A stretch of 64,000 bases of DNA from Pseudaquabacterium terrae (GTDB lineage Bacteria; Pseudomonadota; Gammaproteobacteria; Burkholderiales; Burkholderiaceae_C), in NCBI RefSeq assembly GCF_013266755.1, contig NZ_JABRWJ010000005.1, positions 62,001 to 126,000 on the forward strand, given 5' to 3'. How positions within the stretch are numbered: the stretch's first letter is position 1; each line of letters starts with the position of its first letter. The notes under the pieces are model-generated. The model was given only the letters and a program-made list of their open reading frames with translations. It made no database searches and had not been told where the DNA came from. The position numbers and the translations under genes were made by a program. Below are positions 13,360 to 15,956 of the stretch, one piece after another.

Positions 13360-14496
13360 CTAGAACAGCGAGGCCTGCCGCGGCGATTCGTCGCCGCGCT
13401 TGGCCGGCCGCTGGAACTGCGTCAGGTCGAGCTCGACACGCTTGCGGTTGAAGCCAAGCCGCGCACAGGCCTTCTCGAAGCGCTGCCGCAACAGCTGCGC
13501 CCACAAGCCGCTGCCGGTCATGCGGCGGCCGAACGTCGCGTCGTAGTCGCGCCCGCCGCGCATGTCGCGCAGCCGCGCCATCACGCGCTCGGCACGCTCC
13601 GGAAAATGCTGCTGCAGCCACTGCAGGAAGAGCGGTTTCACCTCCCACGGCAGGCGCAGCACGATACTGAACGCTGACGTCGCGCCGGCCTCGCGCGCTG
13701 CTTCGAGGATGCGCTCGAGCTCCGGTTCGTTCAGGAACGGGATCACCGGCGACACGCTGACGCCGACCGGCACACCGGCTTTCGCCAATGTCTCGATTGC
13801 CCTCAGCCGGCGCTGCGGCGCGGCGGCACGCGGCTCCATCACGCGCGCCAGCGCAGGATCGAGCGTGGTGATCGAGAAGTACACCGAGGCGAGCCGCCGT
13901 TCGGCCATCGGAGCGATCAGGTCGAGGTCGCGCTCGACGCCGGCCGACTTGGTGATCAGCGAGAACGGGTGGCTGCATTCCTTCAGCACCTCGATCACCG
14001 AGCGCGTGATTCGTAGGCGCCGCTCGACCGGCTGGTAGGCATCGGTGGCCGAGCCGATGTTCAGCTGCAGCGGCGTGTAGTTGCGCGCCGAGAGCGCTTC
14101 GCGCAGCCGTTCGGCGGCGTTGACCTTCGCGATGATGCGGGTCTCGAAATCGATGCCCGGCGACAGGTTCAGGTAGCTGTGCGTCGGGCGCGCGTAGCAG
14201 TAGATGCAGCCGTGCTCGCAACCGCGGTACGGGTTGATCGACAGGTCGAATCCGATGTCCGGCGAATCGTTGCCGGCGAGGATGGTCTTGACGTGCTCCT
14301 CGAGCACCTGCGTGCCGATCGGCAGCGGCTCTTCCAGCGCTGCCTGCTCGAGCGTGCCCCAGCCATCGTCGAAGGATTCGCGCTGGTCGCGATTGAAGCG
14401 GTGCTCGAGCGCCCAGACGGTGCCGCGGCCCTTGGCCGGCGCGTAGACCAGGGTCGCTGGCGGCTCGGTGACGGGAACGATCGGGATCCGGCGCAT
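13360..14496 (-). CDS. PA0069-family radical SAM protein
   Basis: 378 aa. Seen: the radical SAM cluster-binding motif CEHGCIYC (C93, C97, C100) in NPYRGCEHGCIYCYARPTHS, followed by the SPL-related features of the PA0069/Rv2578c-like group (GSATDAYQPVERR, LITKSAGVERDLDLI, SVSPVIPFLNEPELERILEAA). The reaction is unknown; relation to spore photoproduct lyase suggests a nucleic-acid repair role, which is inference. The ATG at 14496 has no ribosome-binding site and starts where the predicted promoter would place the first transcribed base, so the mRNA may be leaderless. A LexA box sits 1 bp upstream. Confidence 0.88.
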   Translation of the reverse strand: MRRIPIVPVTEPPATLVYAPAKGRGTVWALEHRFNRDQRESFDDGWGTLEQAALEEPLPIGTQVLEEHVKTILAGNDSPDIGFDLSINPYRGCEHGCIYCYARPTHSYLNLSPGIDFETRIIAKVNAAERLREALSARNYTPLQLNIGSATDAYQPVERRLRITRSVIEVLKECSHPFSLITKSAGVERDLDLIAPMAERRLASVYFSITTLDPALARVMEPRAAAPQRRLRAIETLAKAGVPVGVSVSPVIPFLNEPELERILEAAREAGATSAFSIVLRLPWEVKPLFLQWLQQHFPERAERVMARLRDMRGGRDYDATFGRRMTGSGLWAQLLRQRFEKACARLGFNRKRVELDLTQFQRPAKRGDESPRQASLF

Positions 14497-14497
14497 G

Positions 14498-14513
14498 CTG
14501 TGAATATATACAG
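14498..14513 (-). promoter_or_regulatory. LexA (SOS) box of the radical SAM gene
   Basis: CTGTGAATATATACAG is an exact CTGT-N8-ACAG LexA site with an A/T-only centre apart from one G, and its flanks extend the symmetry (GCTGT...ACAGC). In this GC-rich genome such an AT-rich palindrome stands out. It overlaps the predicted -10 element. The family member PA0069 of Pseudomonas aeruginosa is, as I recall, in that species' LexA regulon, which agrees. Confidence 0.85.
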
Positions 14514-14531
14514 CACCTGTGGATCCGTCCA
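14503..14531 (-). promoter_or_regulatory. Predicted sigma-70 promoter of the radical SAM gene
   Basis: On the minus strand TGGACG (14531-14526) and TATATT (14508-14503) are separated by exactly 17 bp. The -10 lies inside the LexA box, the standard arrangement for repression. Transcription would start at or within a base or two of the ATG, explaining the lack of a ribosome site. Confidence 0.6.
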
Positions 14532-14540
14532 GCGTCGGTT

Positions 14541-15956
14541 TCAGTATTCGCCGCCGCCGAGCGCGCCGGGCGCCAGGTTGTCGAACTTCGTCAGCGGCTT
14601 CAGGAAGGTCAGCTTGACGGTGCCCACCGGCCCGTTGCGCTGCTTGCCGATGATGATCTCGGCGATCCCCGGCTCCTTGCACTGGTCCTTGGTGTAGTAC
14701 TCGTCGCGGTAGATGAACATGATGACGTCGGCATCCTGCTCGATCGCGCCGGACTCGCGCAGGTCGCTCATCATCGGCCGCTTGTCGGTGCGCGTCTCGA
14801 CCGAGCGGTTCAGCTGCGACAGCGCGATCACCGGGCACTGCAGCTCCTTGGCCAGCGCCTTCAGGCCACGCGAGATCTCGGACAGCTCGGTGGCGCGGTT
14901 CTCGCCGTCGGACTTCGAGGTGCCGCTCATCAGCTGCAGGTAATCGATGACGATCAGGCCGACCGTGCCGTGCTGGCGCGCCATGCGGCGCGCGCGGGCA
15001 CGCAGCTCGGCCGGATTGAGGCCCGGCGTCTCGTCGATGTACAGCGGCGCCTTGCTGAGCTTGTCGACGGCCTCGGTCAGCCGCCCCCACTCGTCGTCCT
15101 TGATGCGGCCGGTGCGCAGCCCGCTCTGGTCGATGCGGCCGAGCGAGCCGACCATCCGCAGCGCCAGCTGCGAGGCGCCCATTTCCATCGAGAAGACCAG
15201 CACCGGCAGGCCTTCGTTGACCGCGACGTTCTCGGCGATGTTCAGCGCGAACGCAGTCTTGCCCATCGACGGCCGCGCGGCCAGGATCAGCAGGTCGCCC
15301 TTCTGCAGGCCGGCGGTCATGCGGTCCATGTCGTAGAAACCCGAGCGCACGCCGGTGACGTCCTCGGCGCCGTTCTCGTAGAGCTCGGTCACGCGGTCGA
15401 TCAGCTGCACCGCAAGCTCGCTGATGCCGATGAAGCCCTGCTTGTTGCGCGAGCCCTCTTCGCCGATCTTGAAGATGCGGCCCTCCGCCTCGTCGAGGAT
15501 CTGCGACACCGCGCGACCCTGCGGATTGAAGGCGTTGGTGGCGATCTCGTCGGAGGCCGAGATCAGCTTGCGCAGGATCGCGCGCTCGCGCACGATCTCG
15601 GCATAACGCCTCAAGTTGGCGGCACTCGGCACGCTCTGCGCCAGCGCGTTGAGGTAGGCCAGGCCACCGCAGGACTCGGCCTTGCCGTTGCTCTGCAGCC
15701 GCTCGAACACGGTGATCACGTCGGCCGGCTTGCTCGCATTGATCAGCACGGCGATGGCGTTGAAGATCTCGCGGTGCTCGTAGCGGTAGAAGTCGCTGTC
15801 GTTGATCAGATCGCCGGCGCGGTCCCAGGCCTGGTTGTCGATCAGCAGGCCGCCGAGCACGCTCTGCTCGGCTTCGTTCGAATGTGGCGGGATGCGCAGC
15901 CGGGCGACTTCGTCGTCGGCGGCAGGGGGTTCGGCGGAGCGGAAGACTGCAGACAT
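14541..15956 (-). CDS. dnaB: Replicative DNA helicase DnaB
   Basis: 471 aa, hexameric helicase that unwinds DNA ahead of the replisome and interacts with primase. Seen: N-terminal domain beginning at PPHSNEAEQSVLGGLLIDN, Walker A ARPSMGKTAFAL, Walker B GLIVIDYLQLM, and the C-terminal RecA-fold motifs (SQLNRSVETRTDKRPMMSDLRESGAIEQDAD). No intein is present. The start MSAVFRS at 15956 was chosen because upstream codons lie in non-coding sequence. It follows rplI after two strong terminators, so it probably has its own promoter or depends on read-through. Confidence 0.98.
   Translation of the reverse strand: MSAVFRSAEPPAADDEVARLRIPPHSNEAEQSVLGGLLIDNQAWDRAGDLINDSDFYRYEHREIFNAIAVLINASKPADVITVFERLQSNGKAESCGGLAYLNALAQSVPSAANLRRYAEIVRERAILRKLISASDEIATNAFNPQGRAVSQILDEAEGRIFKIGEEGSRNKQGFIGISELAVQLIDRVTELYENGAEDVTGVRSGFYDMDRMTAGLQKGDLLILAARPSMGKTAFALNIAENVAVNEGLPVLVFSMEMGASQLALRMVGSLGRIDQSGLRTGRIKDDEWGRLTEAVDKLSKAPLYIDETPGLNPAELRARARRMARQHGTVGLIVIDYLQLMSGTSKSDGENRATELSEISRGLKALAKELQCPVIALSQLNRSVETRTDKRPMMSDLRESGAIEQDADVIMFIYRDEYYTKDQCKEPGIAEIIIGKQRNGPVGTVKLTFLKPLTKFDNLAPGALGGGEY

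Follow-up and report, generated by a model that had tools for sequence, protein, structure and literature searches.

The closest described counterpart of the gene studied here is splB (COG1533), for which Sanchez-Alberola et al. 2012 predicted LexA control in alpha- and beta-Proteobacteria; in the accessible part of their report, LexA sites precede splB in both classes despite different LexA motifs, and the product is read as a photoreactivation enzyme (PMC3323433). As in the PA0069 family, the gene in question is an splB homologue of the radical SAM type with LexA sites, and the two are probably the same gene family (PMC3323433). Excerpts from two further studies place splB (COG1533) among the core SOS genes of Bacteroidetes (PMC8565304) and tie SplB-like proteins to SOS genes by neighbourhood (PMC3765255), in both cases for proteins that may not be exactly the PA0069 family. 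As for leaderless messages, which are documented in Burkholderiales, the available text on Burkholderia cenocepacia reports 72 genes, perhaps including tRNA genes, with primary starts exactly at the annotated start, the leaderless genes having a TA-rich promoter motif directly upstream (PMC4603805), and that on Cupriavidus metallidurans counts 4.67% of primary starts as leaderless, with enrichment of such mRNAs for the transcription and replication/repair classes (PMC7563307). The locus described below resembles the B. cenocepacia genes in its TA-rich promoter motif adjoining the gene; it differs in that its promoter doubles as a LexA-type operator and in having a geometry shared across a clade, LexA being absent from the accessible text of both transcriptome studies (PMC4603805, PMC7563307), just as the word leaderless is from that of the splB study (PMC3323433). 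The SOS control of an splB-named gene in alpha- and beta-Proteobacteria is already known as a prediction and is not new. What is new here, on comparative sequence grounds, is the clade-wide fusion of the operator with the start codon, together with the evidence that the PA0069-family enzyme is not a spore photoproduct lyase (SPL).

In the SOS response, RecA-driven self-cleavage of LexA after DNA damage frees promoters. Within the window, i.e., the whole 64 kb stretch of DNA that was analysed, the ATG of a radical SAM gene is preceded by one base and then by a perfect CTGT-N8-ACAG palindrome (gene strand 14513-14498; Table 1). On re-reading the sequence, the letters and position of this box and the one-base gap given in the initial annotation proved exact, the promoter TGGACG-17 bp-TATATT was found to run across the box as described, and the absence of a Shine-Dalgarno sequence was likewise confirmed, since the box occupies all 16 nt that precede base 14497. 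The -10 hexamer stands about 6-7 nt 5' of the start codon, which with the missing Shine-Dalgarno sequence fits a leaderless gene, and the overlap of box and predicted promoter fits a member of the LexA/SOS regulon. The choice of this ATG is supported by N-termini that are alike directly after it (MRRIPIVPV in the window, MRHIPIV in locus L062); upstream of it the reading frame stays open.

Table 1. Features of the radical SAM locus (positions in the window)
Feature	Position	Strand	Basis
Radical SAM gene, 378 aa, PA0069 family (NF033668)	13360..14496	-	ORF translation, profile match
Start codon ATG; predicted transcript start 14496	14494..14496	-	+ strand reads CAT
Candidate LexA box CTGTATATATTCACAG (gene strand), CTGTGAATATATACAG on + strand	14498..14513	-	sequence, orthologue conservation
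-10 hexamer TATATT, within LexA box	14503..14508	-	sequence, promoter alignment
-35 hexamer TGGACG, 17 bp from -10	14526..14531	-	sequence; TTGACA-like at same offset in leaderless group
dnaB, upstream neighbour	14541..15956	-	start codon chosen by us

We consider it quite probable that the site is a LexA operator overlapping the promoter of this PA0069-family gene, that the gene is damage-induced and gives a leaderless mRNA, and that its product is not SPL. LexA bound to this site would block RNA polymerase, since the operator contains the -10 and the -35 closely precedes it; the self-cleavage of LexA driven by RecA upon DNA damage would then free the promoter, RNA synthesis would begin at the A of the ATG or no more than about two bases from it, and the resulting leaderless mRNA would be translated without a Shine-Dalgarno sequence. 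The arrangement thus suggests a gene induced by DNA damage and transcribed without a leader. In relatives outside the lineage the same box is mostly followed by a short leader, one that this lineage seems to have lost.

Orthologues were gathered at 110 loci (30 from the family search, including that of the window, and the 80 best named loci), of which 109 were anchored; L118, where the motif anchor is missing, was left out of the box, spacing, promoter and background counts. When loci with a weak box or none are set aside, 87 with a usable box remain, and the start codon follows the box after 1 nt in 30 of them and after 2 nt in 4. An in-frame stop lies inside the box at 15 of these 34 fused loci, so that translation cannot begin further upstream there. 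On a quick tree of 109 proteins (SH-aLRT support, no bootstrap; L107, with no start found, left out of the protein set), the fused geometry occupies 30 of the 31 rows of one clade (SH-aLRT 95), in which 11 of the 17 named rows are Sphaerotilaceae, and recurs at four further loci outside that clade. Plotted on the tree, the geometry label requires 5 changes, compared with about 29 when shuffled, which indicates that the fusion was gained few times and then kept. The one exception within the clade, L061, has a degenerate box, CTGTATATATTTAAGG, with no start codon close by. The clade also holds L075, on a contig labelled as a Myxococcales MAG, with dnaB and a fused box; it is probably a mis-binned contig.

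Aligned on the box, the 34 fused loci share a TTGACA-like -35 at offset -18 with a mean of 2.71 matches out of 6, against 2.00 for the highest of 300 shuffle maxima (the shuffles ignore relatedness). The spacer between this -35 and the -10 at box index 5-10 is 17 bp, and the best -10/-35 pair (index 5, spacer 17) is found in 15 of the 34. Among the 48 loci with a gap above 6 nt, the remaining 5 of the 87 belonging to neither group, the best pair falls at index 3 with a spacer of 16 (15 of 48) and the -35 signal is weaker, at 2.08 versus a highest shuffle maximum of 2.06. In both groups the messages have weak structure over their first 36 nt. A Shine-Dalgarno-like 4-mer at -18 to -4 occurs at none of the 34 fused loci, a zero that the box imposes by taking up that space, and at 9 of the 53 other boxed loci. 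In a wider set of 70 loci described below, a start codon was assigned at 39, of which 18, within the class or order but outside the family, have a CTGT box; the leader after the box measures 14-22 nt in 17 of these and 33 nt in one, and 10 of the 18 have a Shine-Dalgarno-like 4-mer (also 10 of 18 over the whole leader). On this evidence a short leader with a Shine-Dalgarno sequence may be ancestral and the leaderless form derived, a loss of the leader that is weakened by the 9 of 53 among the nearer relatives. Taken together, the fixed -35/-10 pair, the gap of 1-2 nt, the clade and the in-frame stops lend good indirect support to the leaderless message that was predicted from this single locus. 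Our search of the open-access literature, outside which most subscription journals lie, found no paper joining leaderless with the SOS response, a LexA box and the start codon.

The alternative that survives best keeps LexA control and takes the main transcript from upstream, by a distal promoter or by read-through from dnaB, with the box acting as a roadblock in the 5' untranslated region. It draws on the position of dnaB: this gene has the same orientation and its end is 44 nt upstream, so that read-through could give a leadered mRNA, as might a promoter at a variable distance upstream. We nevertheless hold it to be unlikely, because the same geometry occurs at 15 of the 34 fused loci where no dnaB was found within 1.5 kb upstream, because the -35/-10 pair has a fixed place across the box, and because no Shine-Dalgarno sequence is at hand for translating a leadered message. 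The initial annotation had also taken the position just after dnaB as a hint of a role in SOS repair, which we do not retain: dnaB lies at most 1.5 kb upstream at 19 of the 34 loci of the leaderless group and at 0 of the 53 other boxed loci (one of which, L096, has only 225 nt of upstream sequence), a local synteny restricted to that group that says little about function.

As for the iron-sulphur radical enzyme itself, it scores 468.9 bits against the PA0069 family NF033668, above the cut-off of 360, and matches Pfam Radical_SAM; for the Rv2578c family NF038135 it reaches 213.2, below the cut-off of 430. The three cysteines C93, C97 and C100 (CxxxCxxC) are conserved in 109 of 109 proteins. With SPL (Bacillus subtilis SplB; PDB 4FHC) the family shares its radical SAM type, the C-x3-C-x2-C motif and the tyrosine before the third cysteine, and differs from it in lacking a fourth conserved cysteine, in its unconserved relay tyrosine and in scoring far below the SPL cut-off. 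It is against this background that the published splB annotation, that of a true SPL or of a generic photoreactivation enzyme (PMC3323433), has to be weighed. The CxxxCxYC pattern speaks for it, as do weak matches to TIGR04070 and TIGR03886 and, in PHROGs, a weak photolyase match beside one family without assigned function. However, the score against the SPL family TIGR04070 is 23.7 bits for a cut-off of 400, and C141, essential in SPL of B. subtilis according to the accessible text of PMC3742179, has no equivalent among conserved positions, the next commonest cysteine columns of the 109-protein alignment holding 23, 36 and 48 of 109. Of the 109 proteins, 65 have F and 44 have Y (as here) at the position of the SPL relay residue Y99, next to the third cluster cysteine; at that of Y97, 108 have Y. 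A profile comparison with SplB (probability 24) gave an alignment gappy around C141, so that the argument rests on cysteine conservation over the whole alignment. We therefore reject the identity with SPL, which we regard as improbable; the photolyase label does not fit the conserved residues of the PA0069 family and, as far as the accessible text of PMC3323433 goes, the photoreactivation reading is unsupported by the cysteine and tyrosine tests applied here.

A different repair or nucleotide chemistry appears to be the likeliest reading of the PA0069 family, and the enzyme probably acts on damaged DNA or nucleotides. The PADLOC search for anti-phage systems gave no match, and among solved structures searched by sequence there was no close relative. 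It is worth adding that 12 of 53 near-complete genomes of the same family have no PA0069-family match, from which it follows that some of these bacteria can dispense with the gene.

With regard to LexA itself, a palindrome of this kind carries little weight on its own. The window contains only one perfect CTGT-N8-ACAG for a mean of 0.45 expected from shuffles, at least one being present in 37 of 100 shuffled windows, so the bare motif alone is not significant in 64 kb; the whole genome holds 27 perfect sites versus 12 for a reversed control pattern, and perhaps half of its perfect boxes are background. The box owes its significance to its position and its conservation in orthologues: the same 109 loci hold 75 perfect boxes in 39,330 nt of orthologue 5' regions and 4 in 541,914 nt elsewhere. 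LexA control was to be abandoned if orthologues had no LexA sites in front of them; perfect sites are in fact present, in about 360 nt around and upstream of the start, at 75 of the 109 anchored loci (that of the window included), rising to 90 of 109 when at most one outer mismatch is allowed. Among the 19 of 109 without a box at this level, 7 have another LexA-type box; in the 26 loci inspected, GTTC-N7-GTTC was seen in five named ones and GAAC-N4-GTTC in two (Gallionellaceae, Nitrosomonadales).

A wider search of 299 genomes of the phylum found the PA0069 family above the cut-off in 111. All 31 matches sharing the class or order but not the family were read, and of these 23 have CTGT-N8-ACAG, one has TTAG-N6-TACTA and 7 have none of the perfect boxes tested. 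Outside the class, 39 of 73 above-cut-off matches were read (the 30 best-scoring and 9 chosen ones, their classes being partly inferred), and GTTC-N7-GTTC was present in 35 of the 39; for the 30 best-scoring loci, with either strand counted, it has 28 occurrences in 5' regions and none in the remaining 109,635 nt. At 9 of these 70 wider loci, which lack an anchor, the whole stretch was scanned for boxes. Every perfect box tested was absent at 11 of the 70, among which 4 outside-class loci have GTTC-N7-GTTC with one mismatch. We take GTTC-N7-GTTC, TTAG-N6-TACTA and GAAC-N4-GTTC to be the LexA boxes of alphaproteobacteria, xanthomonads and some betaproteobacteria. LexA thus seems to keep its hold on the PA0069-family gene even as the sequence it recognises changes, and without selection for SOS control a LexA-type site kept through changes of box type would be difficult to account for. 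The conservation in orthologues and the switch of box type between groups strongly support the LexA control that had been predicted for the gene. The PA0069 homologue of Pseudomonas aeruginosa is presumably LexA-controlled as well, as the initial annotation stated; in the open-access literature, which most subscription journals stand outside, no paper was found joining PA0069 with LexA. That an AT-rich -10 in a GC-rich genome merely happened to match CTGT-N8-ACAG, with no LexA control at all, is barely credible, given that the outer CTGT/ACAG bases are conserved before orthologues and that other groups have other LexA-type boxes, even if the bare motif is to be expected by chance at the rate given above and the genome has, at ruvB, a box that seems fortuitous.

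A gene that seems SOS-controlled despite a changing LexA target likely matters when DNA is damaged. It is tempting to go further and to see in the PA0069 family a core SOS enzyme that repairs DNA by a radical chemistry other than that of SPL, held by LexA through several box changes, whose operator in the Sphaerotilaceae lineage would have merged with the start codon, making the induced message leaderless and readable by ribosomes that translate leaderless mRNA under stress; we offer this wider picture tentatively, as a possibility that is somewhat unlikely in its entirety. The leaderless clade beside its leadered relatives provides a natural comparison for asking whether leaderless translation helps during DNA damage.

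Elsewhere in the genome, one LexA and one RecA are encoded, each above its family cut-off, and boxes of the same type as that of the radical SAM gene accompany them, as befits a LexA/SOS regulon: CTG-N10-CAG sites lie upstream of lexA (CTGGATAAAAATACAG and CTGGATGAATACGCAG) and of recA (CTGTACAAATATCCAG), with one outer mismatch in the recA site, one in one lexA site and two in the second lexA site. The ruvB gene was considered as a second fusion of operator and start codon, its start ATGGGCATACAG lying inside a perfect box (G000:C1:866254-866269; L005:2055-2070), and was rejected. Among relatives, a perfect ruvB box was found in 0 of the 25 loci giving output (of 30), and L231 has a one-mismatch box over the start codon. 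Since the M-x-I-Q N-terminus encodes a half site, the perfect box of ruvB is probably a coding coincidence, and it follows that a perfect box alone proves nothing.

The genes adjoining AT-rich sites include an SRAP-domain protein, a DEAD_2 helicase and a recombinase of the phage-integrase family. The LexA-like box CTGTATAAATCAACAG (L008:2080-2095) lies 68 nt 5' of the SRAP (SOS response associated peptidase) gene, and CTGTATATCCATACAG (L016:2083-2098) lies at the 5' end of the DEAD_2 helicase reading frame. A further LexA-like box, CTGTATATATGTACAG (G000:C34:2556-2571; L021), is a strong one; it lies 6 nt before the first start codon of a gene encoding an integrase (Phage_integrase and SAM_4 domains) that by eye resembles an integron integrase. 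AT-rich perfect boxes also stand near further genes (L015:1997-2012, L007:2043-2058 and L023:2099-2114), those of L007 and L023 being an identical 16-mer in opposite orientation.
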